Source of the DNA: Corbicula japonica
Taxonomy: Eukaryota > Mollusca > Bivalvia > Venerida > Cyrenidae
Assembly (NCBI GenBank): GCA_038501625.1
Contig: JAZAYU010000013.1
Coordinates: forward strand, 7,192,001-7,256,000
Reading direction: 5' to 3'
DNA length: 64,000 nucleotides
Of this stretch, positions 22,536 to 52,531 are shown piece after piece (the stretch's first letter is position 1; each line of letters opens with the position of its first letter). The notes under the pieces were generated by a model. That model had not been told where the DNA came from, did not search any database, and saw only the letters and a program-made list of their open reading frames with translations. The position numbers and the translations under genes are program-made.

Positions 22536-22829
22536 TAAACGAGAATGAGAGTCCCGGCACTCTTAAATTTCCTTTTCTAGTTCTTTTATAGAAATACTTT
22601 CTTGAGACATGAAAATCCTTCTCGATATCCTACACACTTTCCTAACACATTAATTCACGTCTTCTCACCACTTTACATTTTTACACTTTTTTACTTTTTA
22701 CGTTTTACTGGTTCTTGAGGGGGGTACTGGAAGAGGGGTGGTTAATTTTTTTAAAATATGGGGTAGTTAATTTTTTTTAAAATAGGGGATAGTTAATTTA
22801 AAAAAAAAGGGGGGGTGGACTGGTTCAAT

Positions 22830-23215
22830 ACACTTACTACTAAGTCACTGCTAACATATTCAAACCGTTTCTGCTCAATCAATTTAGAAGGAATGAGATA
22901 TTGTGATGAAACTTGCTTTATATGTGTCTACTGTGAAGACGACACTTAAGATTGGGCCACTTTGGTAAAGGTCACTGTTACTAAAGACAGAAAAACTTTT
23001 TATACGTTAGTGAGAAATGAGATATTGTGATGAAACTTACTGTTTAGGTTGCTATTTTTGAAGACTGCTTGGGATTGAAAATAGGTGTGTGGGATCAAGT
23101 TCAAGGTCACTACTACATGTGTCCAGGTTTCTAGTGTTAGTTACATTACGCAATTGATTCGAAGCATTTCCAGTTCAAGTATCAAGCACACATGTGGGGG
23201 TATTTAATCACTTTC
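22830..23215. repeat. Bivalve-type CCCCCACAAACGAAG element, 3' part of copy 2
   Basis: It shares with copy 1 the blocks TTTCTGCTCAAT, GAATGAGATATTGTGATGAAA and the end CATGTGGGGGTATTTAATC. The head is missing. Confidence 0.6.
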
Positions 23216-23561
23216 AGTGATAATTCTAGTTAAATCCTGTTCTCGAAAAGACATCAAAGCTCTTTTAAGCATATGTCTTTTGACTTCATTTTCTAACCAC
23301 TACCTATTTCAACAAAATCTACGGGCATATAGTTGATGGTCTGTAAGAAATTGTATGATTAACTTAGACTTACCTTCGTAGAAGGGAAGGCAATGGTTGA
23401 TCTCAATTTCATCCGATTGCTAACTCCCTGAGGGCTCACTTACATGAATGAGCCTTAATATATGGTTTCTGACAAATTGTTTGTTTTGCTCCCCCTTCCG
23501 CTGTAAAAAAGGCTTGTCATTGGTCAGTTGGGTGAGCTTGATTTTAGACTCCCCAAGATGT

Positions 23562-24362
23562 TTAATTTTTTCCCCAAGTTGTCCCCAAACAATTCATGGC
23601 TGATGTAGAATTGTCACATAACGGTTTGTATGGCTGCAGGAGATCTTTCCTTATTTCTTCCTTTCTGATAATGCTAATTTTGGCTACTGAATGTGTCAGG
23701 ATTTTAAAAGCATCAATAATTTGGTTCTTGAGTGCTTTGTCTTCCGATTTCTGGGACCGATCTAGCGCCTTCAGATATGGAACCAACGCAAATTGTGCGT
23801 GTTCCTGTGACTTTTGTAAGAAATAGTCTGTATTTTTTGTTTCCCGTTTTAGTTGTGACCATAGGATGTCGTTAACTTTTGGAGTTTGAAGATACTCCAC
23901 ATTTTGAGGACGTTTGTGTCGTTCTTGTAGTGTCTTCCACTTTTCTGGCTGGACCTTGGTAGAGATAGCAGTTTTTGTTAATGCTGCCAGGTTTTCATCT
24001 ATTGCGTCTCCAGTGTCAGTGGACTCCTCAAAATAATCGAGTAGGTCGGATAACCCATCTACCTCCTTGTACTTTTTTTCCGTTTCCTCCTCTTGAAAAA
24101 ATTTACTTAGACCCTCTTCTAATGAATCCGTACTTTCATTGTCACTGCCACTGTTGGATTTTTCCGGAGCTGTCTTTTTGTTTCTTAGATGTTTCTTAGA
24201 TGGACCCGGCTCAACCACAGATTGTGATTGTCTGTTCTGGGACTTAAATTCCCTTATTTCTGTCTGGATCGTTTTTACAGTCTCTGCTAAATCCTTAAAA
24301 GATTTTGTGGTCTTCTTGAAATCTTCGAGATTCTGGTTTACAGCCTCCCCTGTTTCCACCAT
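23562..24362 (-). pseudogene. DIRS-type retrotransposon gag-like ORF, relic 1
   Basis: A 266-codon minus-strand ORF. The N-terminus is coiled-coil-like (FKDLAETVKTIQTEIREFKS), followed by an acidic stretch and then RHKRPQNVEYLQTPKVNDIL...W with a helical C-terminal part. The pattern 'KRPxNvexLxxPkVNxxiW' and a following Gln-rich helix are what I know from gag-like proteins of DIRS-type elements. The same pattern recurs at 25100-25522. No RT lies beside it, so it is either an isolated fragment or an exapted copy. Some animal genomes carry many such orphan ORFs. Confidence 0.5.
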
Positions 24363-25099
24363 GGTCTGTAAGGATTTTTCTTTGGAGGTCGAATGAGTAT
24401 CCGTTCTGAAATTTGAAAAAGGTTAAACTACTTTTATCTGTAAGACTCTCGAGTAACATTATATCAAATTTTGGTACTAAGACAATTAATGTTGTATCTT
24501 AAAGTGTTAACAACCCATAATTCTATTATAAGTATTTTTAGCAACAACCCCATGGTTGATTTGCGCACATGAAAACAGCGAATCATATCGCTTGTTATCT
24601 TCAATGACCCCATCTGGCTTCAGGGAGTAACAATTGGATGAAATTATACTATCCTCAGTGCTTCTTTTCTCAGAATGCACAATTGACCAGCATCACTATA
24701 CACACTACTTATATCACTAAAGCATGGCTGATCCTTAACCATCACTCTTTGCATACACTTCCTGACATTACATTACACCTTTTTCATTAGCACACACATC
24801 GATGTGGAATACCTAGACATAATATCATGCACTCCATTACTAGATTCATTAATGTATTCTCATTATTTAGCAAAGTCAAGTCAAAATTCAGTGTGAGGTA
24901 AATCAAGTATAACAACTTCTTCAACATCAGGAAAGATTGTAAGATTAAACAAGACTTACCAGATTTGTAGGTTGGTTTGAATCTCTTTTCTCCTTTGAAC
25001 TGTGTTGTTGTTGTTGTCTGTACTGTTGATGGTGGATGGGAGTGTAGTTCCCTCCCCACTTCCTTTTCTCTAAAAAATCCTTCTGGGTGGTCTATGCGG

Positions 25100-25522
25100 T
25101 CATTTTAATGTTCTTAGAACTCTCAAGCTGTTTGGTATGTTCTGACAGTTGGTCACTAAAAGACCGGTAGCTGACACTGCGTTTTCATCAGCACATTTCA
25201 GCTTAAATTTGGGATCAAGTTTCTTTTTAATAGACTCCTGTCTTTGCTGATTAACGATGACGATCGATTTGCATACCAGTTTAAAAGTGTCACCAATCAA
25301 CTCTTTCAGGACATTGCAGTCTGGCTTTTCAGTTGTGCTGGTGCGGTCCATGGCTGCAACCTGGGGAGTGGCAATTGCGTTCAGATGGTTGATCATTTTC
25401 TGTCTCTGGATATCAGCTGACTTGGTTGGAATTTTTAGCTGATTCCAGAGAAATCCATCTATCCGCAGAACTTGAAGACTGTCGACATTGGAGGGCCTCT
25501 TGTATTTCTCACAGACTAACAT
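25100..25522 (-). pseudogene. DIRS-type gag-like ORF, relic 2
   Basis: A 140-codon minus-strand ORF with YKRPSNVDSLQVLRIDGFLW followed by helices and VCKSIVIVNQQRQESIKKKL. It is parallel in layout to the ORF at 23562-24362 but clearly diverged from it (duplicated or independently inserted). An ORF at 25816-26079 on the same strand (FLQKGEAILNIFKLSVGG, C-x2-C) may be its N-terminal part in another frame. Confidence 0.45.
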
Positions 25523-25815
25523 TGTTTTTTCTGTACAAAGACTGGACGGGTGTAAAGCTTTGTTTACAACTTTTGCAACAGTAGGTCCTCAAACAATCTG
25601 TTCCACAAAAAATTCATCTTAATCCTGCAACAGGTTGTTTCCATCATTTTTATGCAAAGTAGTTTGGGTTTTATGACTTTTTCAGCAAACAGTTGATGCC
25701 TTCATAGTCGAAAGAGTGTGAATTGTCTACTTAGTCAGTTTCACTTTCAGATCTGATCTGTGTAACTTTTGCTGGTGTTCCATAGCTGCCCTTGCCAGTT
25801 TCGTCTTGTAGACAT

Positions 25816-30729: not shown

Positions 30730-30731
30730 TA

Positions 30732-31080
30732 CCCCTGCGAGAAATTCTAGAACTGTTCTTGAACTTGTTCCAGAACAGTTCATGAACATTAAATGGCAGT
30801 TCAAGAACTAAACCGTTCTAGAACTTTCAAGAACAGTTCTTGAACAAGTTCAAGAACCGTTCTTGAACAAGTTCAAGAACCGTTCTTGAACAAGTTCAAG
30901 AACCATTCTTGAACAAGTTCAAGAACCGTTCTTGAACAAGTTAAAGAACAGTTCTTGAACATGTTCAAGAATGGTTTAGTTCTTGAACTGCCATTTAATG
31001 TTCATGAACTGTTCTGGAACAAGTTCAAGAACAGTTCTTGAACATGTTACAAGTTCCAAGAACAATTCATTAACTTCTCA
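30732..31080. repeat. Left subterminal repeat block of the large transposon
   Basis: Dense iterations of GTTCTTGAACAAGTTCAAGA, AACCGTTC and TTCTAGAAC. The block is also a foldback: 30752-30830 (TTCATGAACATTAAATGGCA...) is complementary to 30965-31045 (...TGCCATTTAATGTTCATGAA). It is probably the binding region for the element's own proteins (inference from CACTA elements). Confidence 0.85.
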
Positions 31081-31334
31081 GTCTTAGCTTCTTACTAGTA
31101 GTCATCAAAAAAATTGTAAACAGAGGGACACACTGATGGACCACACTGCACAAATTAAACTCAAATGAGTAATGCATCATGGTGAACATTACAAGACTAT
31201 GGTGAGGTTTCATAGAGAAACAACAATTAACATAACTTTCAAGAACTTTTCATGGACATTTAAAAGACATAGAAAAGTCAACAAGCTGATGAAGTGGATT
31301 AGTTTCCGTTTGTTAAGGTTTCACAAGTCTTGAT

Positions 31335-34300
31335 TTAGTCTTTTTTCTGCTCTCTACGTATGACCTTTTGCAGGTTTTCAAATTTCTTAATAAAGGTCTC
31401 TTTGTCAAATAGGGTAAACTTGCTGACAACACAATTTTCTAACTGCTGAAACTTGGTCTGATTCAACTGGGGTTTAACGTCCTCCATGCATTTTATCGTT
31501 CTTTTTCCTGTTCTTGTTCCCGAACAAAGTTCATCAGTTGTGAAGAAGTGTAAGCATAAGTTTTTAAATTTGTTATGCACTCCTACACCCTTAGCAACAA
31601 CATCTTCAATATCCCCTTCACCGGTCGTATCTTGTGTGGTAGTCTTGTCCAAAACCATGGGTTGTTGAACAGTGTGGTCCACAGTGGCTGATTCAGGTGT
31701 CGCAAGACTGCTGTCAGCAGAACTTTCTTTCACTGATTTCCCCGTCCTGCTTGTTTTCTCCAACTCTTCTATTCGTTCCTCCAATTTCCTATATTTCTTT
31801 CTGAGGCTTCTTACATCCTCCTCCAGGCGTTTAATTTTCTCTCTGAAAATTTATGCATAAAATATATTATTGTATAACAAGAGCTGCTGCTCTGTTAGCG
31901 ACTAGTATACCTAATGTGTGTCTCACTACAAGAAAGCTGTGTGGTTCATTTTAACTAGATGGGTGTTCAGTTGATCACTTGTGTCGCCCTCTGGTGCAGT
32001 CGGAATAAAAATGAAAGTACAAAAAGGGGCATAACTCCATCAAATGTGACCTTGACCTTAGAAATATAGTATTGTCACGAGCGTATTGTCATAGGGTATA
32101 TAATTTGAAAGTTTAATGAAGAAATATTAATAAATGGCAAAAAAAAAGCTAACGTTAAGTTTTGTATAAAGGGGAATAACTCAATCAAATGTGACCTTGA
32201 CCTAAAGAATGTGGTATTATCATGATCATGTTGTGAAAAGGAATATAATTTAAAAGTTTGATGAAGAAATATTAAGAAATGGCAAAGTTATAGCTAATGT
32301 TAAGTTTTTGTAAAAGGGAAATAACTCCATCAAATGTGACCTTGACCTAAAGAATGTGGCATCATCATGAGCGTGTTGTCATAAGGAATATAATTTGAAG
32401 GTTTCGTGAAGAAATATTATGAAATGGCAGTTATTGCCAACGTTAAGTTTTGTTTTCTAAAATTTAAGTACAAAAGGGAAAGGGGAATAACTCAATCAAG
32501 TGTGACCGTGACCTAAAGAATGTGGTATTATCATGATCGTGTTGTGAAAAGGAATATAATTTGAAGGTTTGATGAAGAAATATTAAGAAATGGCAAAGTT
32601 ATAGCCAATGTTAAGTTTTCCTAAAAAGGGAAATAACTCCATCAAATGTGACCTTGACCTAAAGAATGTGGTATCATCATGAGCGTGTTGTGATAAGGAA
32701 TATAATTTGAAGGTTTCATGAAGAAATATTAAGAAATGGCAAAGTTATTGCCAACGTTAAGTTTTGGTGTCAAAAATTAAGTACAAAAAGGGGCATAACT
32801 CCATCAAATGTGACCTTGACCTTGAGAATTTGGTATCATTTCGAGCGTGTTGTCATTAGCAATATAATTTATAAGTTTGATGAAGAAATATTAAGAAATG
32901 GCAAAGTTATAGCCAACGTTAAGTTTTCGTGACGGACGGACCGACGGACGGACAAAGCGATCCCTCTGTATCGCCATTTCTTCGAAAGGGCGACACAAAA
33001 ATGGGCATAACTTTTAAATAATTGTAAGAGTTTTGTGTCTTGGTGGTTTTGATTTAGATTATCATAGTTTGAAGTTGATATCTCTGGTAATTTCAGATGT
33101 ATAGACCCAGTGCATATTTTGGCTAATGCAAAAACTTAAGAAACATTAGAACCATCAAGCAGCATTCAAAACAGAGATAAATTGTCAAGAATGAATTCTT
33201 ACCCTGACACATCTTTTCTGCTGGAACCATGAACCCTGTTGCTCAAATACTGGTTGCTTTCTGGAGTCCCTACATAGATAAGCATACAAAATAGTGCTAT
33301 AGTACTTCGATGACCGTGACCAATCTTTATTAGCGTCGAGTCGTTGGTTTTAATCCCATTTCTGGCATCTTTGTTTCTTGATTAACCATTTTTAAAATTT
33401 GTCTCTGGACAAAAATTTATATTGATAGTATTCTTGAAAAATTCTGGAACATGCTGCTTTAATATATCAAGGCTAATGAACCACATCACAGTGTATGGTA
33501 CAGACATGGGGATTAGTAACCTACAAATAAGTCAGTTCAAGGTAAATTAATCCAGTCTCACTCCAAGCTACAATTTAAGTGAGGTGTGTATCTTTTTACA
33601 ACATTTTTAAGTTAATAAGATTTATGCCTATGTTAATCATATTTGATACTATCTCACTAACATATTTTAAGTGGAGAAATGGAAATTTATCAGCTGATTA
33701 CCTTCAAACTGCAACAGTTTATTTGGAGCGTGAGCTGACTTTGATGAACCCTCTGACTTTTCTACATGTCTTTTCTTTGGTGTCACTGCAAATTATACAA
33801 GAAATAACTTTTTTTTAAAGCATTGTTGAAAAAGATTTTTATACATAAGAAATATAGAACAGCAAAGCAGACACAGTTTAGTAATTTTATTGTATTGTTA
33901 TAGCTGTTGAGAAACAGTCCCTGCCTTCTAAGTATGGCCTCCGGATTAAGCGACCAAATCATGGAAACCCCAAAGAAGCAATGTCATACATTTAGTCTTG
34001 ATCTACATTTATTCAGTTTCAATAAAATACCTCTTGTAGAGTTTGGACTCAAGATGAATAAATGTCATTAAAATATATTAAATATAAATAATAATTTTCC
34101 CCAATAACCTCTACTGCCTGGTCGGAGACAAACTGTATGTTGAATGTCTACATTTGGGAGCCGTATTGTACATGCCAAGCCAGAAAATAACTTTACTGGA
34201 ACCTTCAGCTGAAAGGTCATGATAATATTTCATATTAGTAATAAAAGTTACCATCAGATTTCCCAGATTTTTGTGGAGAGTGAGCCCATGCTAGTGCCGA

Positions 34301-36329
34301 ACCCTCAGACTCTTCTACATGTACGTGTCTTTTCTTTGGTGTCACTGCTGCTGAACCCTCTAACTCTTCTACATGTACTTGTCTTTTCTTTGGTGTCACT
34401 GCAAAGTATAAATAAATTTAGAATAAAACAGAATGAACAACTTAAGTCCTGCCAGTTTCCTTTTGACAAGAACTAGGGGAGTTATTGTCTTTCCATTCAG
34501 TTGTGTGATTTCATGTTTTATACGTAACATGTTAGTAAGTTACAAAGGGCAAGAATCATAATGATTTGACTTAAGGTAAATGTGACTTCTCTTCACTGTA
34601 AACAAATAAAGTTCATTGGAAAATAAAAGTTGACCAAGTACAAATTCGAAATAAATCGCAGTAAATTTACAATTTTTCTATGAATTATGAAGAAAGTTAG
34701 AAAGACATGGGGGTTTTATATTATCAGTTTAAATTTTACCATCAGATTTCACAAATTTTCGTGGAGAGCGCCTCAGTACTAGTAATTCTTCATTCTCTTT
34801 TAGGTCTTTATTCTCTCTCTTGTCTTCAACCTCTGGAAAGCATTATAAGAAACATTAGCATGATAGCTGAATAAAACATTGAAATAGGGTTTTCTTGACG
34901 GCACGTATAATTTCATTTTAACAAGAGTGATGTTAGCAAAGCAGCATGGAGGCACACGTAACAAGAATTAAACTGCATTAATATGAACTTATACGACTCT
35001 GTAACCAAGATTTTGACCAAGCAGGCCCCATATTTTAACTTTATCTAGATATTATCAAGAAACAATTTCTGACCAAGTTTGTTAAAGATCCGACGATGCT
35101 GTTACGTGGACAATTATCGACTTACATTTGCAAACTGAAGAAAACAAGAATACTTTTTTAATATATTTAATTTTTACATGAAATAATTTTTTTGTTTTAC
35201 TTTATAACTATGCCATGCACCATTTTCGACCTGCGGGAAACCTGATTAGGCGTCAATATTTTGTCACTGATCAATTCCAATACATCAAATTGAAAAATTG
35301 TAAATAATCTCAACTTATTTATAAAATTCATCATCCTAACCAGAAATTTTGGTAAGTATAAACTTATTAAAACACTTACTGTTTTCACCCAAAAACTTGT
35401 CAGTTGGATCTGCAGTTAAAGACAGGAATTCAGTTTTCAACCATGATGTCATTTCCTTTTTGCCTGAAATATGAATATTACTCATGAACCAAATGGATGT
35501 CAGATGAGGTACTGAGGTAGATTAAATTCAGAATAATATAATTAGAGAATGCACATTTGTTCTTAATGCTGGAAAGCCTATTATGTCGTAAGGCAACAGA
35601 AAATTAATAGATTCTCCAAATTTTGGGGAAAAAAATGGGGCCGGTGGGTGGATTTTATTTTCTATTCAATATCATTTAATCTATGTAGAATTGTCATACA
35701 ATTAAAGGGTGGAGGTGATTTATTAGAGAAAGCCTCAATATTGATTTTGGTAAAATGAGGCTTTTTTTGCCATAGAATCTTCTTTGAAATTCTATTTATC
35801 ATTTTACATTCAATGAACGCCACTGCTTCAACCGGAATGACCACATTTAATCAAAATCAATTTTCAACATTGGTCCAAGAAAAGGTTGGAAAGCAAGGCT
35901 ATGTAACATACAAGTAAAAATTAGTGCACAGGGGTTTCGAAAACAGAACCAGTTTTCTCCAAAATTTCTCCAAGATAAACCGGCCGCCCCCACCCCCCAA
36001 AAAGAATTGAGGGTCTACACTGGATAAAAAACATCGTTTTTATTTTTTTTATAGATGGGGGCCGTTATCAAAGCCCTTGTGGTAAAATGCATATATAATA
36101 AAATTGACATCCAAGTCATTAAAACTATCTTACCTCCCACATTGAGAATGCGAAACTCCCAAAGCCCCGAAAACCCAACAAAAACAGCTAGTCCACACAT
36201 TCCCGGCTTATAGTCATCCAGTGGCATCTTTGGTGATGATACATAATTCAAATCGTGAACAGATAGCCTGTTATTATCGGTTAACCATCGCATAACCGCA
36301 AACTTATTTTCTGCTAACTTTTTCGACAT
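31335..36329 (-). CDS. BEN-domain-like nuclear protein of the large transposon (7 exons, 392 codons)
   Basis: Exons in coding order: 36329-36134, 35463-35380, 34832-34740, 34398-34252, 33785-33702, 33269-33203 and 31842-31335. All introns are GT-AG, every phase agrees, and the total of 1,179 nt is 393 codons including the stop, with no interruption. The N-terminus (MSKKLAENKFAVMRWLTDNN, SSPKMPLDDYKPG) resembles the short domain found at the start of some BEN-domain proteins. Then come TPKKR-rich basic repeats (three near-identical copies, likely nuclear signals), a coiled coil (EKIKRLEEDVRSLRKKYRKL, about residues 225-255), a Ser/Thr-rich linker and a C-terminal domain (NLCLHFFTTDELCSGTRTGK ... 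about 312-390) that resembles BEN domains. BEN domains bind DNA. Its place opposite the transposase suggests an accessory DNA-binding role, like TNPA. The BEN assignment is by eye and moderate; the gene structure is stronger. The start ATG at 36327-36329 is the first Met in the open frame, which itself extends further upstream. Confidence 0.72.
31880..32998. repeat. Bivalve-type repeat in intron 6 of the BEN-like gene
   Basis: It runs from ACTTGTGTCGCCCTC to TTCTTCGAAAGGGCGACACA. About six units of roughly 145-165 bp contain CATCAAATGTGACCTTGACC and GAAATATTAAGAAATGGCAA. It ends in GGACGGACCGACGGACGGAC. A nested insertion, in the intron only, so the gene stays intact. Confidence 0.7.
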
Positions 36330-36582
36330 TTTTTTTTGTTCTTGAACGCTGATTGCGCCAAAATTACGTGTATGAATCGGCAATTTTAATTGGCAGACTA
36401 TATCAGGATAGAGCCAATCCAGCGGTCTTTTACTTGTTTTTGAATCCGATTCCAATATCACGATATTAGCAGAGGTCAGGAACCAGATAATACGTAAGTA
36501 AGTAAACGCTTGATTGGATTTCTTGGAACCAACGGACCAATGTAATTAGTCGTTACGAAAAAGTATAGGCAGAAATTAGAAA
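36330..36582. promoter_or_regulatory. Shared intergenic region of the two divergent transposon genes
   Basis: 253 bp separate the start codon of the BEN-like gene (36329, -) from that of the transposase (36583, +). Both promoters must lie here or in upstream leader sequence. No TATA box is convincing. Location is seen; promoter function is inferred. Confidence 0.4.
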
Positions 36583-39500
36583 ATGGCTTCCAAACACGAC
36601 AGATTTGAAAAAGTCTTTTCTGGCGACAAGATTCAATATAAATGTTCGTTGTGCTCACGGCAATTAAGTTCGAAACAGAACATACTGATCCATTTACACA
36701 AGTTACACAGTCTATGTAAGATATTAAAGTTCTTTTTACAGTATTATTAATTATAATTCGGCTGGGAAATCGGTGACAGGACTTTTCGCTTCCTTGACGT
36801 TCAACTTTGGTCTTTTCACCTCGTAAAAGTTTCGGCCCTAGCCTATTTATTATATGGTTCAATAAAGGCGGATTAATCAGGAAATACCATCACTTTTTAG
36901 CGAAACAACTTAAGTCTTTTAAAAAATAGAAGATTTATTTCAAGTCTCAAGATTAACAAGAAACATGATTCACCAAGACATTTATTTTTGTTTGTTTGTT
37001 TAATTTCAAATTCAGCTATCTTTCTCCTTCAAAGAATTATCTCCAATTATCAAAAATTGCTTACATTGTTATCAGTGATAGTGTGCACTAAGAGCTATCC
37101 ATCCATACCAATATGTTTTGTTGCAAATTATTTTTTTTATTTTTAAACTAATTTTGACATACAGTAGACTCCACGAAATCAGGTATCGGCTATAAGAATA
37201 TATCGGCAAATGGGGTATGATTTTTGAACACAAAACCATTTCCTATATAAGCAATGTAAATTTTATCGGTCATACGGGTATTGGATTAGAGAATATATCG
37301 CCCAATCAAATAGAAATTTTGCAATTTTTTTTGCCAAAACTGATTGAAATCGAATATTTTCATCGCCTGTTTACAGGAAATGACACCGGATGTACCGTTT
37401 ATCGTCCGTATTAAAGCTGATGACGCCCTTATTATTTGCCAATTATCAGCTGATAAATCCAATTAAATATTTTGACAGCGATGAACAGGGACAGTGAAGC
37501 CTCCAGGCAAACTAATTGTAACCTGTCACCGCTTTTAAACAGCTTATTCAATCAGGCGTTAAAAAATCTGTTACAAATACACAGCAGCCTATAGGACTAT
37601 CCGTTATTGAGACGTTATTGGTACATGTACTTACAATAATCCATGTTTAAATTCCATTGTCTCTTTTTAATTATCGCATAAATTAATCCGCACAATTCAG
37701 AAACAAACAAACAAAAAGTAATTTCTCAATCATGTTTAAATAACACTCATAGATTTTTGTACATTTCTTCGATCCTCCTTCCATGTTAATTTCATACAGA
37801 GACTGAATTTGATTGACAGTCAGTATGGAGGTAAACATTGATAACAACCATCAATGAAATGCAACTTCAAAGGAAATTGTCAGCTCATATCAAGACTGTG
37901 TTTTTGTCGGCTCTGCTTTGAAATTGTTTGATCTACAAAACTATGTATGTGACATTTCACATTTTTAGCTGGATTAAATTGGTTGATGATGCAACCATAC
38001 TGAAATATGATACTTAAGATAAAATTGGGATGTAATTTATTATGGAATATGTTCGCATTGGTTAGTGTTTTAATACTTATTTCACATTCACGTTGTAAAT
38101 GTCGCGGTAGCATAATATAATTTGAAACTTCGATTTTGTAGCAGAACATGACAGAAGGGTCTGTTAATCAATAAATAAACATACAAAATAATGCATATTT
38201 ATCCAGAACAGGATCTACCTGACCTCCCTTGTCAACAAAAATATGCAGATTTCATGATGAATACGATTACCGGCCAATCGAGTACTCTGGTCAATAGAAT
38301 ATTTTTAGCTGACAATTTGTGTATTCGATTTGCCGGAGTCTACTGTACTATTTTAACAGTTGAAGTTTTGGAGGGGGAGAGGGGGGCATATATGTTTTAC
38401 AAACATCTCTTGTTTATTATATTAGTACATCCTGGGAGGAAAAGGTGAAAATGCCCCTCTCCATGGGTACCAGGTACCTCCTCTCCCAATAATTTGAATT
38501 ATTGAAGTGATATATGCATACCTCATTTTCAGTTCTTAGGAAAATAACAAATTCCAGTATTGTTACATTTAACTATTGTCTTCTTATTTTACATTGATAT
38601 TTCAGATATTGTTATATACACTTAATATTTACAGCTCCTGTAAAACGGCAGAAGAAATTGTATTTAACTGATAAAGACTTGGATGTTCCTCCACGTACAC
38701 TGTACAGATGGAAAAACAAAACAAAACAGACAAACACTCTTAGCTGTGAACAAGATCAGCTTCCAAGTAAAACAAGTACAAAATTTGCAAGTCATGGTAA
38801 GCTCATTAAAAGTTTTTATACATAATGTTTTTAGTTCCTTATATCTCTGCAACCAAAACTTGTTTTAAATTAAAACTTGATTATTAATATTATTTATCTT
38901 TATGATATGTCCACATACATTAATGTATATTTTCGTTATATACTGTAACTATCCGGCCTAAAATGTGTCCAAGTATATTTCACATAATCTATAATTTTTA
39001 AAAAAATCTTTATCTTGGCAACATTGAAATATCTATAATTTCAGGTGCAGAATCACTGGAGTGTGATGTAGAAATTTCATCTCAAGCAACAATTGATGTA
39101 GAAATTTCATCTCAAGCAACATCTTATGTAGAAATTTCATCTCAAGCAACATCTGATAGAGATATAAACAATGATAGTGTTTTCAATAATAGCAGTGGGT
39201 GCACATCAGAGTTGTCAGATGTTGGATCTTCATATTCCGGATATATGTCAGATACCTTTCATAGTCATACAGAAGAAGAAAGTTCAGACATAAACACTGT
39301 TTCAGATTCAAACTCTGACACAGATGTATCTTCTGATACGGAGTCTGAATATTCATCATGCTCGGATACTGAATATTCATCCTGCTCGGACACTGAATAT
39401 TCATCATGCTCGGGCACTGCAAATGCTGATTCTGGAGATCAAAATAACTTAATGACAAATGAACTAGAGGCACTAACAATAGTGTCTACTTTCCGTCGCC

Positions 39501-42500
39501 ACAACCTGACCACAAGTGCTTGCAAGGACATACTTGACACTGTGAAATCAGTTTGTAAAGACTCAAAGAATGCACATGTGTTAAATTACGATTACGTACT
39601 GTCCTTTGTTGATTCAAATCAATTAAATGAAGTGCATTATTGTGAATTATGCAATGAAGTGTTTCCAAAAGACTTAAATATATTCAGATGTAGCACCACA
39701 AACTGTGAGGGTTTGCGTTACAAAGGTCCACGATCGAAACAAAACAGCAAGGAAAGACAGCCTAGACAGTGTTTCATTGTTGCTGATGTCGAAAAACAGC
39801 TAACAGATTTTCTTCAGTCTCCTGGTAATATTTAGCTTGACTATTCTTGCTAGAAAGAAGGGCATTAAGTATTCACAATGTCCAAAACGTAGCGTTACTA
39901 AACTGGTCAGAACATACTGCAACCTTGTTAACACTATAGAGGACACTTAATTTGTCTTGATAAAATCAAGGTCAAATACAGAGTTCTGTGGGGTCAATTA
40001 ATGTCTAAACTCTTGTCTACCAAGTATTATAGTTATATCATTTTTATTGTCTTTAGACAAAAATAATTTTACAGTTAAACACATGTTTCGGTTGCCAAAA
40101 ATTTGTCCTTATTGGCTGATAGCTCAAGTTAGCAAATTATTAGCGTAGCTACATTTACTAAGATTTAGAAAATTTGAACAAAACATGTTAATATTGGTAT
40201 TTTCAATTCAATTTTTAAGTAGCTTCCATCTGTGAACCTGTAATTTTAAAAGATCTGATCTCTGGCATAAAATAAATTGTAAGAAAAAGAAAATTAACAA
40301 TAAATTCAATAATTTTAATGTTTTATACTGTTTCTAAAATAGTACATGTCACTTGTGACAGTGACAGTGAAATACACACCAAAGCAACAAACATGCAATT
40401 GAAACATTGATTGTATCAGAAACATCTATTTATTATATTACTTACATTTAACCCCTTCCTTCAGATATATACTTTTATTGTGTGGGCAAACAGTGTAGAT
40501 CCAGATCAGCTGGCATATCCTTACCATCTGAACGGGATGTACAGTGTTTGCTTTTTTATTCGTATCGTTATTTATGACCAAAATGCAACCAGTGCAGATC
40601 CTGATCAGATGGCATGAATGTGCATGCTGATCTGGATCTACATTGGTTGGTCATGTGTTAAAATGTGTATGGAGAAAAGGGTTGAAATATGGACAAAATG
40701 AGTCAACAGAAGCATAGTAAAATATCTTGTGTGCTATTATCGGTAGAATAAAATGGAACAGCTATATTTTATCACAGATTCGTGTATATGGTGATTTCGC
40801 TATTTATGTTTCTATAGAAATTGCTGCAGATCTTTTTAAAAATAAATTTCATTTACATGCTGTACTAAACAAGTTAATTTACGAGAACAGTTTTTGGCAA
40901 GCTAAGTTGCTACTTGTAGAAAATCTATTTCATACATATATATGCCTTCATTGGGTAGTTATTATACAATCCTTTGCCAAGAAAATAACAACCATTTCTG
41001 CTGTTAAGCCTTTTTTTCAAAAGTCTTCTGTTTATTAGAATCTTGTTCATACTTTATATTTTTGTATTCCAGATGTTATGGCTAATATTAGATCTCAGAA
41101 AACTGCGGCCCGTTCTCAAATGAACCAGGATACTATAACGGATATTATTGATGGAACAGCTTATAGGAAAATGCTGAATGGTGATGGGTTTCTGAATAAT
41201 GCTGACTATAATATAACTGCTGTGATAAATACAGATGGAGTCAACCTCTACTCGTCTTCAAAGGTTGAGCTGTGGCCAATATTCATGGCAATAAATGAAC
41301 TCAATCCAAGAATTAGATTTTCACGAAACAATGTTCTGTTAGTTGCAATCTGGCAAGGAAAAGGCAAACCTCCATTTAAACAATATATAGAATGTTTAGC
41401 ACCTCACATGAATAGCCTCTACAGGGAAGGAATCAACATGGTACTAAATGGTAATAAAATAAATGTGAAAGTCAAAGTAGTGTGTGGTGTGTTTGACTTG
41501 CCTGCAAAAGCAGGTATTCTAAATATGAATTACTATAATGGTACTAATGCATGCATCACATGTGAAGAGCCTGGGCTAACAGTACCACAAGGTAATGGAT
41601 CAGCCAGGTCTTATCCATACAGAAATGGTCAACATACATTACGGAAGCATGAAGATGTTCTGGATTGTATGCATTCAGCAACTCACAAAAACAAGATTAA
41701 AGGCTTCAAAGGGGTATCTGGACTAATCTCTATTGAATCATTTGATCTTGTTGATGGTATAGTCCCTGATTATATGCATGCTGTTCTGCTTGGAGTCACA
41801 AACACGCTTATGTGTAAATGGTTTTCACCAACGGAAAGCAGGAAAGACTACTTTGTTGGAAAACATCTGAATGAAATTTCTCTCCGTCTCCAGAATATAC
41901 AGCCTCCAACAAGCATTGAAAGATTACCACGAGACTTGGAAAAAAATTACAGAAATTTAAAGGCTACTGAATTACAAGCATGGTTACTTTTCTATGCAGT
42001 ACCATGTTTAGTTGGAATTCTGCCGGAGGTTTATCTGGCACACTTTACTTGTCTTTCAGAGGCAGTGTACATTCTCCTAGGTGATCAGATAACGCCAGCA
42101 AGCTTGCAGAGAGCACAACGCCTGCTTGACCAATTTTATTCCTCATTTGCGGATTTGTATGGTGCAGGATCGTGTGGACTAAATGTGCACAACACATGTG
42201 TTCATTTAGTCCATTTTGTGAAAATGTGGGGCCCACTCTGGGCTTGGAGTTGTTTTGGTTTTGAAGATAATAACGCAATGCTATTGCAGGCTGTACATGG
42301 AACAGGTGTAGTTACAAAACAAATAATGGGGCACAAACAAGTTGAAGCTACACTACGTAGAAAATCTCTTCATGAAGGTAAACAAAGATATTGGAAAACA
42401 ACATACAAAGCAGAAAACTGTGATGTTGCTGGAAAAATGACAGCAATTGGAAATGCTGGAATTGAAGATTTTCTTGTAGAACTGGGTATTGATAAGAATG

Positions 42501-42871
42501 TTAAACAAATTTCAAGGGTTATTGTGAATGGGCGTAATTTCTGTTCCTTGAAATATACACGCATGAAGAAGCGAGTCTGTAGCTATGTTTTATATTCTGA
42601 TGGTAAAGTGGGATGTGTAAAGTATTTTGTTATTGTTACAGATTCAAACATTGTTTATGCAGTTCTTGAAAAGTATGACTCTTGTGAAGAAGTACAATTT
42701 TCTCAGTTACCTGCTGCGAAACATCTTGTACCAATAAAAGCGACAGGCATTGAAATTGTGATTCCTGCTAACTACTTAATTGATACACTTGTGTACATAA
42801 ACGTCTGCCCTGAATTGAGTGCATGCGTTGCCCTGATGCCTAGCACTCATGGACATGCCATCTTTAAATAA
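36583..42871 (+). CDS. CACTA/EnSpm-like transposase (4 exons, 957 codons)
   Basis: Exons 36583-36715, 38635-38796, 39045-39824 and 41073-42871 join in phase across GT-AG introns; 2,874 nt gives 957 codons plus stop with no break. Order: C2H2 zinc finger at residues 21-42 (C21, C24, H37, H42), basic signal PVKRQKK (46-52), three DVEISSQAT repeats, an acidic Ser-rich stretch with three SDTEYSSC repeats, a C-x2-C...C zinc-ribbon-like region near residue 300 (CELCNEVFP), then the catalytic region. The latter has NTDGVNLYSSSKVELWPI (Asp near 413), GVFDLPAKAG (Asp near 500), CITCEEPG, PDYMHAVLLGV, YGAGSCGLNVH and GPLWAWSCFGFEDNN, the typical order of TNP2/Transposase_21-like CACTA enzymes; the Asp residues and a later acidic residue are catalytic candidates. 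It should cut and join the element's ends in the nucleus. The intact reading frame implies recent activity. Confidence 0.85.
36716..38634. other. Transposase intron 1
   Basis: 1.9 kb with no coding signal on the plus strand. TACAGTAGACTCC at 37162 could be one end of a TA-flanked MITE, but no partner end was found. Confidence 0.35.
40448..40686. mobile_element. TTAA double-hairpin MITE in transposase intron 3
   Basis: It begins TTAACCCCTTCCTTCAGATA and ends GTATGGAGAAAAGGGTTGAA. Both hairpins are recognisable, and the copy is moderately diverged. It lies in an intron, so the transposase frame is not affected. Confidence 0.75.
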
Positions 42872-42923
42872 CAATTTTGGTATCTACTTTTTGTTTATCC
42901 ATAAAGGGATAGGAAATAATAAT

Positions 42924-43337
42924 CACATATTTAATTAAACTCTTTAATTTCAAAACGTTTCAGCCATCGGCCTTCTTCAATTGAAATTGTCACAACAAGC
43001 TTACATTTTCTTATTATCACAACATACATACAGGAAGTTAAAAGAAATGTTTGTATGATGTCAATGACGTCATAGTTGACGTCTGATGTTGCATCAGTCC
43101 CACACAGGCTTTTTGGTGCCAAATTTATAAATAAATTACATTATAATTAAAATGAATAATTATAATGTAATGTAATTTATTTATTTATGTAATTTATATA
43201 TATATATTCCTTTAAATATAGATTTTGCTAAATATATATCATCATCAATTGATTAGAAAAATACATCACAAAAATTTCAACTGAAAAAGGCCAATTGCCG
43301 AAACGTTTTGAAATTAAAGAGTTTAATTAAATATGTG
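42924..43337. mobile_element. 414-bp TIR element downstream of the transposase
   Basis: Ends CACATATTTAATTAAACTCT... and the complement at 43337 continue for about 60 bp (TTTCAAAACGTTTC, then GGCC-rich GCCATCGGCC / GGCCAATTGCC). The middle is AT-rich with a second palindrome near 43130-43190. No ORF. It is nested inside the large transposon. Confidence 0.7.
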
Positions 43338-43894
43338 CATTTTGGTATCATTTGCATGTTCTTCATCCAAAATGTCAAATAGTTTGTACAGTTTAGTTAC
43401 ACCATCATGCTACATGTATAACTTTTAATATTACCTGACTGGTTGCTTTCATTAGAACACTGGATAAATGCATGCTTGATACCCAACCATGATGGTAACG
43501 GCAACATGTGCTTATTACACATGTATTTATGTGCATTTTTCTACCCAAATGTTAAGCCAAAAACAACTTTTTTTGCATTAGAGGAATATAATGGTATCAC
43601 AATTAAGCCTTATTATGTATGATAATTATAGGTTCTTCACAAGAGTCATACTTTTCAAGATTGGATCAGGAAATATGCACCATTTGTGCAGCAGAAATAT
43701 TCTTATGATGCCTTTATATTTACACAGAAATTTCTGTTATTCGATACAAATTGTTTTCTTGAACCTTAAGATAAATATATTAAATTAAACTACAGGTTCA
43801 TTAACTTGTGTTTCAATATTGTAGTTGTAGAACAAATATTCCAAAATTAACAATACTTGAGAACAAATTTTAAGTACCACAGCTCTTGCTTAAA

Positions 43895-44184
43895 ACTTAA
43901 AGAAATTCAATGAACAGTTCTAGAACTAAAAGAACCACTATCAGTTCTTGAACCATGTTCTAGAACCTCTATCAGTTCTTGAACCATGTTCTAGAACCAC
44001 TATCCGTTCTTGAACCATGTTCTAGAACTACTATCAGTTCTTGAAACATGTTCTAGAACTTCTATCAGTTCTTGAACCGTGTTCTAGAACTTGAATCCAT
44101 GTTCAAGAACATTGCTTTAAGTTCTAGAACAGTTCAAGAACGTTCTTGAACTAACTGTTAGTTCTAGAACTTTTTTCGCAGGGG
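43895..44184. repeat. Right subterminal repeat block of the large transposon
   Basis: Five or so tandem units of about 34 bp (TTCTAGAACCACTATCAG, then TTCTTGAACCATG) followed by AGTTCTAGAACAGTTCAAGA and the terminus. Same core motif as the left block at 30732-31080 but a different higher arrangement. Confidence 0.85.
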
Positions 44185-44186
44185 TA

Positions 44187-46923
44187 TATCTGCTATTATG
44201 AGAATGAATGTCAGAGACTAACTGAAAATTGTCATACATATAAGATGGACATTTTTTATTATAAATCTTGTGAACATGATTGAGTCTCAACTGCTTGACT
44301 CTATTTTCAACATTTAACCAACCAATGCTTTTAAAATCATTTACAGTTAATGAAGTCATAAAGTCATATCCATGAATAAACCTAATAACTTTATTCTGAG
44401 CAGCTTGTAATCTCTGTTTTAATTGTTTAGTAATACCACTGTACCATGAAGAACTGGCATAATCAAAATAGCACTGTATCAAAGAATTACACAATAACTT
44501 TTTCATGTCAATATTTAAACAATGTTTCTGTCTGTACAAAAATCTTACTCTAGAATTAACCTTTTTCACAATATTATTAACAATAGATGTAGCTAAGAGA
44601 TCATTGTCTAATATAGAACCAAGATACTTAACAGATGGTTGTGAATTAATAGTTTGATTATTGCACTCCACATTAAAATTTTTGATTTTCGACAATTTCC
44701 TTTTAGAACTGAAAAATATACATTCTGTTTTTCCAAGGTGTAAAGATAGCTTGTTATCAACTAACCACTTACTACAATTTTCTAATTCCTTGCCTAGAAC
44801 AGTACTAATAACCTTAGGGTCTTTGTGCGAGAAAAGTATAGCACTATCATCTGCATAGAGAATGAGTTTACATTTCTTGCTAATACTGATGCTCATGTCA
44901 TTGATATAACATAAAAACAAAAGTGGTCCCAGAATACTACCTTGAGGCACCCCACATGTGATTTTCATAGACTCGGACATGGCATTATTAACACTAACCA
45001 TTTGGTTTCGATCTGTTAAATAAGATTGAAACCATTCTACTGACTCAACACCCATCATATTTAGTTTTTGACATAAAATACCATGGTCCACAGTGTCAAA
45101 CGCCTTCTGTAGATCTAGCATAATCATTCCGGTATACAATCCTTTTGAAGTTTGACTTTTTATGTGGTCAGTGAGGTGTATGAGACAAGAATCAGTAGAA
45201 TAGTTACATCTAAAACCACTTTGAAATTCATATAAAAGTCCCTCTTTAATTAAAAAAGACTCCAACTGATTATAAACAGCTCTTTCTAAAATTTTGGAAA
45301 CAATGGATAGAATACTAACAGGCCTATAGTTTGAAACATCAGATCTATTATTCTTTTTAAACAGTGGTTTGACCTTAGCACATTTAAGATCCCTAGGAAC
45401 TGTATTTGAAGTAATAGAACTGTTAACTAAAAATGTAATATGTATCTTTATAAAGGGAGCAGCATCCTTCAAGTATTTGGCAGGAATATCATCTAATCCT
45501 GTACTTTTAGAACAATTCAATTTACAAAGTTCCTTATATATGTACTCTTCACTAACAGTATGAATCTTAAATTTACAATCATTAGGATTTCTATCCTTAT
45601 AGAACTGTCTAACAAGGTCAGATTGTACATTGAAAATATTAAAAGGAACAGGTAGCTTATCCACCAAAACAGATGCTACTGTTGTAAAAAAAGTATTGAA
45701 ATGGCTAGCAATTTTAGTTGGTTCAAAACAGTTCTCATTATCAATGCTCAATACAACATTGGGCGAAGATTTTGTTTTATTACTATTCCCTAGATCCTTT
45801 AACTGAGACCATAGTCTTTTAGAATTAAACTTATTTTCCTCTAACTGATGAGAAATATACTCTGACTTAGCTTTTTTTACCTGTCTTTGTACTAAGTTTC
45901 TATAAAAACAATATTTAATATACATTTCTTTTTTTTTATACTTCTTATACTTGTACAGATAGGAATCTCTAATACTTATATGTTCCAAAATAGTGGAATC
46001 TAACCAAGGCTCACTCCTCTGCTTAAGTCTGATTTGTTTAATAGGAGCAACACAATTTAATACACTGGAAAACATCTCTTTAAAAAATAACCAAGACTCT
46101 TCTGCAGAACCGGCAGTAAACATACCAGACCAGTCACAAATTTTAAGATTGTGTATAAAAGCTTCAGCATTGTAGTTTTTCAATGATCTAATTACAATAT
46201 TTTTATGCTTATTAAAAGTACCTTTCTGAAGTTTTCTAGTACAATATACAGGAAGATGGTCACTAAGCCCCACAGGCAGAGTACCAGACTGAAAATTTTA
46301 TCAGGATGACTACATATAATGTGATCAAGGAGACTGGAAGACTTATCACAAATTCTTGTTGGCTCTGAAATAATCTGAGTCAAATTAAAAATACTAAGTA
46401 ATTGTAAAAAATTTCTATATAAAACAGATTTTTTGTTCAAAAAACAGATGTTTAAATCACCAAGAATATACCATTCGGTGTCAGACCTAAACTTTACTAG
46501 TACAGACTCAAGAAGTGTTACAAAATCACTTTGTTTAGGTGGTCTATAACATGACCCAACTAAAATAGGTTTAGTTTTGGGTAATAAAATATCAGCCCAT
46601 ACAGATTCAAGATTGTCACATTCAAGATCTCTTCTTTCTGAAAAAGCCAGGTCTTCATGTATGTAGAGGCACACTCCCCCTCCTTGTCTGTCTCGGTCCC
46701 GTCTGATTACGTTGTAGCCATCAATCCTCACTTCTTGGTCAGTCACCGTATCATCGAGCCATGTTTCTGAAAAAGCTATCACTGCAGCTTTAAAATTTGA
46801 AGTAAAATGTCTGATTTCTGATATTTTGGGTAAAAGTGAGCGAATGTTAAAATGGATAAAATAACTAAATTCATTATAATGTAACAGCTTTGAATGAGAA
46901 TCAGTTTCTACGTAGCATAATTA
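44187..46923 (-). pseudogene. CR1/jockey-type LINE: endonuclease and reverse transcriptase
   Basis: The minus strand from about 46923 reads EFSYFIHFNIRSLLPKISEI, SETWLDD, GGGVCLYI, SCYRPPK, LGDLNI and LLDHII, which are motifs of the APE-type endonuclease. A one-base deletion in a T run (plus-strand A run at 46292-46295) shifts the frame. The second frame then gives the reverse transcriptase: NYRPVSILSIVSKILERAV, QSGFRCNYSTDSCLI, LDLQKAFDTVDH, GVPQGSILGPLLFL, the active-site LYADDSAILF, and a thumb with KYLGSILDNDLL. Coding sequence runs up to SHNSRY at the junction with the 13.45-kb transposon and resumes at 30729. The recorded frame to 44117 reads into the transposon end. The LINE lacks ORF1 here, so it is probably 5'-truncated. 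It is inactive because of the frameshift and the insertion. Confidence 0.85.
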
Positions 46924-47720: not shown

Positions 47721-48612
47721 TCAACTTGACTTCAATGTGTTAATTATAAAATTAAACGAGACCTGAATCAAACAGTTTGCAAATTTGTTTATATATGCAC
47801 ATGTTGTTGTATTGTCAGTGTAGATCCTTACATGTAAACTGGTTTTATTATTGCAAAACGATGTAATAGTTAACTGACAAGCTTTGATGTTAATGTGTAA
47901 AGTTTGTTCAAGAGAATCCCAGACACCGCTTAATCGTAGGTTTTCTGTTTCATTGTATCCTCCCCACCCAGAGCCTGACGCATCTGAGAAAAGTATCAGG
48001 TCGGGTTTACCATGAGATACTTTTTTAGAACTGTTCGGTAAATTATCAATCCACCACCTAATGATGGGTTCACATTGTTTGGGGATAATTAAAAAACTTT
48101 CAAATTTGCCCTTATGAGCTCGTAATGCACTATTTTTAACCTTTCCCAAAGGTTTGTAAAATAAGGGTGCATATCTCTAATGCTTCAGATAAATCTACTG
48201 ACCCAAAATAACAGTTTTCTCGCTTAGCATTGACTGCTGTATACAGTGTCTCCATTTTAAAATGAATATGTTTCATGAAATTAGTATTAAAAGCTTGTAG
48301 ATTGAGGATCACCCTAACACGACCATCTTTTTTAGGCCTGATAAATATTTTGGAAATGAATTCACCATCGCACTCGGGCTCCTCTCCCACTTCTTCAATG
48401 ATACGACATTTCAGAAATCTGTCAAGTTCAATTTTAATTTGTTCATTTTCTTCTGGAGCAAAAGTAAGAGGTTTTGGTATTGTTTTTTGAAAGGGAGGTG
48501 TTTCGAGTTCAACTGAGTAACCACATATAGTATTTAGGATCCATTGGTCTGTTGTTAGTTTTTTCCAATTTTTTAAATAGAGTTTTGTTTTTTCCTGCAG
48601 AAAAATTGTCAA
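47721..48612 (-). pseudogene. DIRS-type retrotransposon reverse transcriptase/RNase H, relic
   Basis: Frame 48612-48136: LKNWKKLTTDQWILNTICGY, FISKIFIRPKKDGRVRVILN and HIHFKMETLYTAVNAK are N-terminal RT motifs of DIRS/Ngaro elements. The frame ends right after SVDLSEA, so the YxDD active-site block is deleted. Frame 48149-47721: LILFSDASGSGWGGYNETEN, LEQTLHINIKACQLT and IYTDNTTTCAYINKFAN form the RNase H domain of the same type. The two frames touch at 48136-48149 in different registers, which marks the deletion junction. No tyrosine recombinase is seen beside it. Confidence 0.75.
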
Positions 48613-48788
48613 CTGTATTTTTTAGGAATGAATCAACTGGGGTACCTAAGGTTATTTGTGGTAGTGTTGGCGTGGCTTCTGTAGATGGCCCTGCTTTTTC
48701 TGTTGAAAACTGGTATTGTTGTTGTTTGAATACTTTTGTCCCTGCGTTGTTGGTTTTCTGTGTTGTTTGTGGTGAAAGGAGGAGTGAT

Positions 48789-49977: not shown

Positions 49978-52531
49978 CACAGTGTACACCCGAAAGTCCG
50001 ACCCTACTTCCGATAGCGCTGACTATACGATATAGCAATTGTGAAGGAGGTGGTTAAAAAGCGGGTAAGAAATTGAATAAAGAGTAAATATTTAATTCTT
50101 TTACTTTAAATACTTAGACTAGCAAGAAATAGAGTGCGTCGAGTTATAAAATGAACTTGATTCATCGTTAACTTCGAAAAAATACGATCGATCACCAAAA
50201 TTTACCAAAAAAATGTCAATCGTGTCACTTCAAACGTCCATATCAAAGCTTTATTTACATTGTTTGGCCGAAATTCGTTTTACTATGTGAAGTGTATTCA
50301 TTACTGTATCACTTCATATAGTTAAATCATGTCCCAACCCGCTAGTTTTCGAAAAACTCGAATTTTCATTGGCACTGGTAGTGTGACAAGATGGTACGGC
50401 TACTAGCAAAGTCTAAAAAACAAATGGTCCGGCTACTAGCAGTCGTAATGTACGGCTTCTAGGGTTGACTAAATAATATTTTTCATCAATTTTGTTGTTG
50501 TTCTGACGTCATATTATAAATTATTATTAAATATCTCTAAAATAGTTTGAATATAGGCTAAAAATGAAATATTTTGATAATTTTCATCGCCTATTATCTC
50601 TGTTGCAGTATGCCGCAATCCCCGTTACAAATATACTTTCGACTTCTCTATTTTCGTAAATCATATTTTAAAAAATCCAAAATAGACTTGCTTCACTATT
50701 TTCTTTTAGCAGAACAGTCGCATTTTGAAACATCTGCTAGAAAGTACATAATTATGTGATATTTGGTTTCGGGTGAAATGATAACAAATCTTGAAAGCGA
50801 CGACAAAACTTGTGTATTGTTACTCCACATTGAAATGAATTGGTAAAAATTTGTGTTGCATAATTATTTCCATTTTACTCACCATTTGCAACGATGCAAG
50901 ATAACTCCTTAATCAACTCGACTAACTCTATAAGCCCAACCGCATTTCTCCAGGTCCGTAAAGCCTATTCCCCAAAACACGCACGGAAGCAGGCACGCAC
51001 GCAAGAGTTTTGTTGATTGTAAGAGGTGCTTTTGTACATGGTGATTTGGGCTTCAGAGTGGTTTGCAATAAGTGTCTGCTAATGGTTGCAATCTGATAAA
51101 AATCTTTTATAGATTGGCTAAAACATATTTTAGTCGAGCCCGCTTTTTTGAATGCCATTTTTGAAATAAGTATTAATTACTAAAATGTTGGATCGGCAGT
51201 GGTTGTTTGAAAGAACGATTAAGTGAATTGAAATATACAAGACGGACGAATTGAGGGGCGGACTGAAGGACAGACGGACATGAGCACATGCAACTCCCCC
51301 ATCCCCGATGGGGGAACAATAAATGTATGTCTTCATTTATGCCCGCTGTTGTAAACGGACAACTCACTAACCATGCTATGAAAATATCAAATAACTTTTG
51401 ATAGGTCTAAATGATAAGCACATACGTTAATTATGTTCGATCAATAACGATCAACATGCACCTGACCCCTTGTTCACAAAGCATTTTCAATCTCAACTGA
51501 GTTTGAGTTTGAAATTTTCATGGCTGATACATTTGAAATTCCATCAAATATATTTACTACTATTCTACAAAATAGTCTTAAATGGTATGTTGAAATTGAT
51601 GCAAAGTCCCATTTTCAATTTACTTTTTATATTTTAGATATATTGGGAAATGAAATACCGATCTCAAACTCAAATGATAGTGAAAACGCTTTGTGAACAT
51701 GGGGCAAGATCTATATACGGTATTTTCAGTACAATATTAATCAATGGTTATCACATTTTTTGCGTTACGACATCTTTCAAGGTATTGCGTCAATAAACGA
51801 TGTAGTCAATAGAATTTTAAGCAATTTTCATTAAGGCTGTGAGATTGTCAAACCATTTAATAGTGTACAATTCAGTGCCATTGTTTATTTCCATTGCATC
51901 CCATTGTAACTTGTATAGTAAATATCCAATGATTTCTGCGGCGACCCTTATTGCTACGCATCAAAAGTCTCTTATATACATATAATTTAATTAAATAAAT
52001 TCGTCATTAATGCTTATTTCTCAGACCACTGAATGATTCGGGGACGACTAGTAGCCGTACCATTTTTAGAAAGAAAACGCTAGTAGCCGGACTGTCAATT
52101 GGCTAGTAGCCGTACCATCTTGTCACACTACCAGTGCCAATGAAAATTCGAGTTTTTCGAAAACTAGCGGGTTGGGACATGATTTAACTATATGAAGTGA
52201 TACAGTAATGAATACACTTCACATAGTAAAACGAATTTCGGCCAAACAATGTAAATAAAGCTTTGATATGGACGTTTGAAGTGACACGATTGACATTTTT
52301 TTGGTAAATTTTGGTGATTGATCGTATTTTTTCGAAGTTAACGATGAATCAAGTTCATTTTATAACTCGACGCACTCTATTTCTTGCTAGTCTAAGTATT
52401 TAAAGTAAAAGAATTAAATATTTACTCTTTATTCAATTTCTTACCCGCTTTTTAACCACCTCCTTCACAATTGCTATATCGTATAGTCAGCGCTATCGGA
52501 AGTAGGGTCGGACTTTCGGGTGTACACTGTG
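49978..52531. mobile_element. Transib/RAG-like candidate: 2.55-kb element with ~428-bp TIRs beginning CACAGTG
   Basis: The left end starts CACAGTGTACACCCGAAAGT and the right end is its complement. The two arms match for about 428 bp (49978-50405 and 52104-52531) with one mismatch that I noticed (GATCGATC versus GATCAATC). ATATG is present directly outside both ends (49973-49977 and 52532-52536), a 5-bp duplication. CAC-type termini equal to the RAG heptamer with 5-bp duplications are known for Transib and RAG-like transposons. The interior has no transposase frame, so the copy is non-autonomous. GGTACGGCTACTAG-like motifs are repeated at the inner TIR ends. Confidence 0.7.
51455..51712. repeat. 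Foldback repeat nested in the Transib-like candidate
   Basis: TGACCCCTTGTTCACAAAGC at the left, its approximate complement GCTTTGTGAACATGGGGCA at the right, and inner CTCAAACTCAAA / TTTGAGTTTGA arms. No ORF. Confidence 0.55.

Follow-up and report, generated by a model that had tools for sequence, protein, structure and literature searches.

An apparently intact CACTA/EnSpm-type element with two divergent genes in the bivalve Corbicula japonica

The window analysed here is a 64-kb stretch of Corbicula japonica DNA (contig JAZAYU010000013.1, positions 7,192,001 to 7,256,000), and all coordinates given are those of the window. A 13,453-bp DNA transposon of the cut-and-paste kind was found at 30732-44184, the host sequence being the open reading frame of a long interspersed nuclear element (LINE). 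The element carries a transposase gene on the plus strand and a second gene, gene B, on the minus strand, and has an array of short palindromes near each end. We read it, with a probability of about 0.7, as belonging to the animal TRC branch of the CACTA/EnSpm elements (CMC group, RAG1/Transib fold), intact and probably autonomous, with ends that would be bridged by the product of gene B.

Element boundaries and insertion site

The element and its ends, with terminal inverted repeats (TIRs), were delimited as follows.

30732..44184, no strand: whole element, with CCCCTGCGA ends, TA on both sides and a LINE empty-site join
30730..30731, no strand: left TA target-site duplication, from the flank and the empty-site join
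44185..44186, no strand: right TA target-site duplication, from the flank and the empty-site join
30732..30744, plus: left TIR CCCCTGCGAGAAA, first 9 bases identical to the right end and 12/13 matching it
44172..44184, minus: right TIR CCCCTGCGAAAAA, 12/13 matching the left end

Exact copies of CCCCTGCGA were found only twice in the window, at 30732-30740 (plus strand) and 44176-44184 (minus strand). Allowing one mismatch gave 3 matches where 2.2 are expected; the word is thus not a rare one. TA-flanked inverted 9-mer pairs lying 2-20 kb apart were counted in the window and in 100 Markov shuffles of it, giving 151 pairs and a mean of 61 per shuffle, respectively. Pairs with at least 6 G+C occurred 0.32 times per shuffle (at least one pair in 27 of the 100 shuffles), and the window has three of them: the ends of the element, with 7 G+C, and two in an unrelated inverted repeat near 50-52.5 kb. 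Since TA-flanked inverted 9-mers are common by chance, the inverted ends and the TA by themselves only suggest an element.

The empty-site test gave stronger evidence than the ends. Both flanks belong to one minus-strand LINE. Its open frame at 44117-46297 (minus strand), of which the last 68 bases lie inside the element, encodes a reverse transcriptase domain (Pfam scan, E=1.3e-36), and the frame at 46192-46920 encodes an endonuclease domain (Pfam scan). When the flanks were joined with a single TA, one LINE frame ran across the junction and ended at a stop in the left flank. The other three joins, with both TAs kept, both removed or the third base removed, broke the frame; by chance, one length in three would retain it. 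A 3-bp duplication is excluded by the flanks, which read CTA on the left and TAT on the right and have TA alone in common. Because only the single-TA join retains the LINE frame and the flanks exclude 3 bp, the TA is a 2-bp duplication of the target site, or else, in formal terms, the element has two more bases at one side.

Transposase gene and its relatives

36583..36715, plus: transposase exon 1, C2H2-like zinc finger by a weak Pfam match
38635..38796, plus: transposase exon 2, from the splice model
39045..39824, plus: transposase exon 3, Ser/acid-rich repeats and a Cys-rich stretch
41073..42871, plus: transposase exon 4, catalytic domain and stop
42413..42832, plus: BAH-like C-terminal domain, model residues 459-598, protein residues about 806-945

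The splice model joins the four exons by GT-AG introns into 958 codons including the stop, without an internal stop. The match of the N-terminal finger was weak (E about 0.08). The Transposase_21 profile of Pfam matched the protein with 43 bits (cut-off 28.6, E=3.9e-11). DUF1258 matched exon 4 just under its cut-off (E=1e-7, 32.2 against 33.1 bits) and was not listed for the full-length protein in a Pfam scan up to E=0.1. Among the relatives, DUF1258 scored 34.8 bits, above its cut-off, in the Mya protein P0007 and 30.8 in that of Ptychodera. Transposase_21 passed its cut-off and outscored DUF1258 in all four transposases scanned (the window, P0001, P0007 and P0026).

The catalytic residues in exon 4, assigned by motif and fold rather than by superposed atoms, are D413 (41234), D500 (41495), C519/C522, H731/H736 and E756 (42263), giving a DDE triad with C(2)C and H(3-4)H between the second D and the E. 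This arrangement marks the transposases of the RAG1/Transib fold, or CMCT group (PMC12730594; this and the other PMC papers are cited for the accessible part of their text). Fold comparison likewise placed the transposase with RAG1 and Transib. A search of its profile against PDB sequences gave four weak matches (best E=0.24), none of them a transposase, and the relation to RAG1 is visible only at the level of predicted fold. The C-terminus of the predicted structure has a BAH-like fold. Plant TNP2 proteins end in DUF4218 and DUF4216 (PMC8978399); a DUF4216-like relation of the BAH-like domain was considered, gave no Pfam match and remains a guess. We also observed that 28 bases of the transposase coding sequence (42664-42691) recur exactly, inverted, at 43633-43660, about 0.8 kb past the stop codon. 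A longer alignment around this match was not convincing; a long transcript could fold into a hairpin through it.

At E<=0.001, 170 relatives of the transposase were found. Among the 120 best, the named ones include sequences from Mya, Haliotis, Argopecten, Saccostrea, Mizuhopecten, Mytilus, Ruditapes, the acorn worm Ptychodera and the icefish Chaenocephalus. The window sequence was aligned with 42 of these 120, and the tree was built from 42 of the 43 rows, P0068 being dropped for short coverage. The window groups with P0001, then with P0003 and P0010, with starred support; 14 of the 39 inner branches are open. P0001 (5 members, 2 contigs) differs from window exon 4 by 3 substitutions and one 2-residue indel. 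The icefish protein P0014 (Chaenocephalus aceratus) is 54% identical to the transposase and the other named rows of its clade are molluscs, a placement that may reflect horizontal transfer or sample contamination. Pattern scans for relatives in viral contigs and in prokaryote genome contigs gave 8 and 39 pattern matches, respectively, none of which was confirmed.

Subterminal palindrome arrays

30745..31053, no strand: left subterminal array, 23 TTC-NN-GAA palindromes, 19 of them full GTTC-NN-GAAC
43917..44170, no strand: right subterminal array, 16 TTC-NN-GAA palindromes, 15 of them full GTTC-NN-GAAC

The repeat unit of the arrays is not just GTTCTAGAAC but the wider palindrome GTTC-NN-GAAC, with centres that are mostly TT, TA or AA. 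The window holds 39 copies of it, and the element accounts for 36: 19 lie within 320 bp of the left end, 15 within 270 bp of the right end, and 2 are internal. With up to one mismatch, AGTTCTAGAAC gave 39 matches in the window against 1.4 expected. In the left array the spacing between TTC-NN-GAA units is 11 or 12 bp in 16 of 22 cases, with a 23-bp period (7.1 copies), and the array is itself a large inverted duplication whose 80-nt arms are 96% complementary. In the right array, spacings of 13 and 18 bp alternate over 9 of 15 cases, with a 31-bp period (5.2 copies). One internal copy, GTTCTTGAAC at 36338, lies directly upstream of the gene B ATG. Outside the element GTTC-NN-GAAC occurs three times in 50.5 kb, a rate that the two internal copies barely exceed, and the copy at 36338 is therefore no evidence of an operator.

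Gene B

36134..36329, minus: gene B exon 1, conserved N-terminal domain
35380..35463, minus: gene B exon 2, from the splice model
34740..34832, minus: gene B exon 3, from the splice model
34252..34398, minus: gene B exon 4, contains a 54-bp tandem repeat
33702..33785, minus: gene B exon 5, from the splice model
33203..33269, minus: gene B exon 6, from the splice model
31335..31842, minus: gene B exon 7, coiled coil, then BEN-like domain (within 31338-31577) and stop
36330..36582, no strand: 253 bp between the two start codons, presumed bidirectional promoter

The seven exons, joined by GT-AG introns, give 393 codons including the stop, without an internal stop. Against the Pfam BEN profile (cut-off 23.2 bits) the whole protein scored 17.1 bits, exon 7 scored 18.8 and the isolated domain 21.1 (E=0.00035). 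The Dreissena relative P0121 scored 19.3 bits and the Tegillarca relative P0124 14.5, with the same profile start as gene B.

Two relatives of gene B were found at E<=1e-3, and six, including those two, at E<=10. They come from Dreissena, Mactra (two), Tegillarca and Ruditapes, with one further relative, P0125. The N-terminal domain of B is common to the Mactra, Tegillarca and Ruditapes relatives. Since relatives with the same parts exist in four bivalve genera, gene B is older than this copy of the element. P0125 (3 contigs) is identical at 172 of 175 residues over exon 1 and the following intron; because the match runs through the intron, its source is another copy or allele, read either as genomic DNA or as an unspliced transcript.

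The initial annotation had proposed a complete, recent-looking, CACTA/EnSpm-related element with two intact divergent genes, subterminal repeats and a TA duplication. The ends, the empty-site join, the Transposase_21 match (a check that it had suggested) and the two stop-free genes support this, our splice models reproduced its codon counts for both genes, and its repeats were confirmed with the wider unit given above. The BEN-like character of gene B and the BAH-like domain of the transposase go beyond that annotation. The identical 9-base TIRs and the stop-free genes fit recent activity.

Comparison with known elements

TRC elements (Transposon Related to CACTA) are animal and fungal members of the CACTA superfamily, and a CCC core and 2-bp duplications are described in the three animals in which ends were found (PMC1636069). 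The present element has three TRC characters: TIRs with a CCC core (CCCCTGCGA at both ends), a 2-bp duplication and a Transposase_21 domain. It also has the subterminal arrays at both ends that are typical of classical plant CACTA elements, whereas it lacks their CACTA/CACTG termini, reading CCCCT instead, and their 3-bp duplication. Spliced transcripts, predicted here, and insertion into other repeats are further likenesses to TRC elements (PMC1636069). These are smaller, with 4.5 kb for SmTRC1 of Schistosoma mansoni, 5.2 kb in Tribolium and 9.2 kb in Aedes, against 13.45 kb here. The TA is a feature of the present element, the duplicated bases not being stated in the accessible text of PMC1636069, and that text mentions no divergent BEN-like gene. 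The word "subterminal" is absent from the paper, which does describe a region of tandem repeats and a TIR repeated internally.

Hydra Spongebob_HMa/EnSpm-4N1_HM, assigned to TRC/CACTA, also has a TIR beginning with CCC and a 2-bp duplication; it is 5.8 kb long, its TIR is otherwise different, and its exact transposase could not be recovered (PMC4298943). A Ciona CACTA element has CAC ends and a 2-bp duplication (PMC6004678). ESTA are fungal EnSpm-like elements with TA duplications, whose naming families carry a TET/JBP gene (PMC12730594); by description, they share with the present element the broad transposase group and the TA duplication. The suggestion in the initial annotation that these termini and the 2-bp duplication mark an undescribed animal subfamily is not supported, given TRC (PMC1636069) and Spongebob (PMC4298943). 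Its remark on size holds in that the element is large; such a size is not unheard-of, given the Aedes TRC element and the red-algal EnSpm families of 16-20 kb (PMC6431247). The termini and duplication are thus already known, and what appears new is the second, BEN-like gene and the BAH-like end of the transposase. No description of a BEN-domain gene or BAH-like domain in such elements was found in the literature covered, which is poor in subscription papers; a Repbase entry may exist.

Maize En/Spm resembles the present element in its Transposase_21 enzyme, its subterminal repeats and its second DNA-binding protein, TNPA. It differs in its CACTA ends and 3-bp duplication, and TNPA arises by alternative splicing of the same unit, while B has a gene of its own, divergently oriented and encoding a BEN-like domain. 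RAG1, ProtoRAG and Transib are only about 10% identical to the present transposase; the RAG1/Transib-type duplication is 5 bp against 2 bp here, and no RAG2-like partner was seen.

Possible role of the two proteins

TNPA binds the subterminal repeats of Spm, and BEN domains of known proteins bind palindromes. By analogy, the likeliest role of protein B is the pairing of the palindrome arrays, allowing the transposase to cut the CCC ends. Both genes would be expressed from the shared central promoter. Protein B, with its coiled coil and BEN-like C-terminus, would bind the GTTC-NN-GAAC palindromes as a multimer and coat or pair the arrays, bringing the two ends together as TNPA does in maize Spm. 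The transposase would cleave the CCC termini through DDE chemistry and insert the element at TA sites, while its BAH-like domain might contact chromatin or nucleosomes and might influence the choice of target or help to hold the complex together. Spm requires both TNPA and TNPD; the element promoter is acted on by TNPA, whose binding to DNA is stabilised by TNPD (PMC1636069).

As a tentative extension, which we consider possible though not probable, a bivalve TRC lineage might have a separately promoted BEN protein doing the work of TNPA on the arrays and a BAH-type module tying integration to chromatin state. RAG2, in the same transposase fold group, offers a parallel with its histone-reading PHD finger. 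A chromatin contact by the BAH-like domain, if it occurs, would make this the second RAG-fold transposition system with a chromatin module, the other being that of RAG2. Should B bind the arrays, the bridging of the ends would be carried out by unrelated accessory proteins in animal and plant CACTA elements. The 2006 TRC paper characterised TIRs in three species only (PMC1636069), and the present locus adds an animal CACTA-type element that is complete and apparently intact, with its two genes, its two ends and an empty-site test.

Alternative explanations

Mirage is a separate CMC superfamily with TA duplications, and the TA found here would suit a Mirage-like filing, as would the DUF1258 match of exon 4, so close to its cut-off, and the passing one in Mya. 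Against these stand the CCC terminus, which fits TRC, the consistently higher Transposase_21 scores and the absence of DUF1258 from the scan of the full-length protein, and we regard this filing as unlikely. DUF1258 denotes the Mirage group, and since PMC3985635 clusters both Pfam families together, the line between Mirage and TRC may be one of naming. Returning to the arrays, these might be host transcription-factor sites of a stress-responsive element rather than sites for an accessory protein. TTC-NN-GAA, of which the two arrays hold 39 units, is a two-unit heat-shock element. Working heat-shock elements, however, have at least three alternating units spaced 5 bp, TTCnnGAAnnTTC and GAAnnTTCnnGAA were each found once per array, and the arrays lie at the tips, more than 5 kb from the presumed promoter. 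The spacing and motif scan of the TTC-NN-GAA units does not fit, and we rejected this very improbable explanation.

Gene B might also have been captured from the host, or be a passenger, and play no part in transposition. Host chromatin factors are known to have BEN domains, relatives of B are few, and its pairing with the transposase is known from this one element. On the other hand, the seven exons of B, which lie within the element, contain no internal stop, B forms a divergent pair with the transposase gene, and relatives in four bivalve genera share its N- or C-terminal parts; we consider a passenger doubtful and prefer an end-bridging protein of a TRC element. Several further observations weigh against our main reading. 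Every BEN match is below the Pfam cut-off, DUF4806 (16.1 bits) outscores BEN in P0124, and Pfam gave no BEN match in P0122, P0123, P0125 or P0126. A PDB search with the last exon of B and P0121 gave 13 matches, chiefly coiled coils, and one with the BEN-like domain alone gave 7 weak matches (best E=0.55); neither included a BEN protein. The AlphaFold model of the last exon is poor (predicted local distance difference test score, pLDDT, 54), too poor for a fold search, and the binding of B to the palindromes is argued by analogy. For the transposase C-terminus, the BAH-like match is one of predicted fold: Pfam found no family up to E=10 in C-terminal pieces of the window protein and two relatives, and the usual BAH aromatic cage, judged by eye, is not conserved. 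The likeness to SmTRC1 is to its description, not its sequence, and the CCCCTGCGA scan of the 64-kb window turned up no further complete copy bounded by both ends. The element also contains nested repeats, so that its lineage is not pristine.

Nested repeats and other features of the window

A tandem array of six copies of a 145-166-bp unit occupies 32022-32931 in the last intron of gene B, with related units at 54180-54330 and 16061-16234. A palindromic repeat resembling a miniature inverted-repeat transposable element (MITE) lies at about 40442-40683 in the third intron of the transposase gene; its copies in the window, 78-84% identical, are at 1119-1311, 10619-10864, 58642-58842, 59430-59626 and 61776-61962. 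Directly after the transposase gene, a pair of 65-nt inverted repeats (42921-43341, 92% complementary, about 420 bp end to end) is perhaps a nested MITE-like insertion. Since the element holds this tandem array, palindrome and inverted pair, its size is probably due in part to added cargo.

Outside the element, frames at 47721-48621 and 21796-25588 (both minus strand) resemble broken pieces of DIRS-type retroelements; none of the six frames scanned there with Pfam gave a domain match above cut-off. The region 19800-20390 (minus strand) encodes a recombination endonuclease VII domain (E=8.6e-9) followed by a stretch resembling family B DNA polymerase, and is possibly a Polinton- or virus-like remnant. 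A large inverted repeat was found at about 49987-50254 and 52255-52522, with about 2 kb between its arms and matching TA-flanked words at a constant centre.

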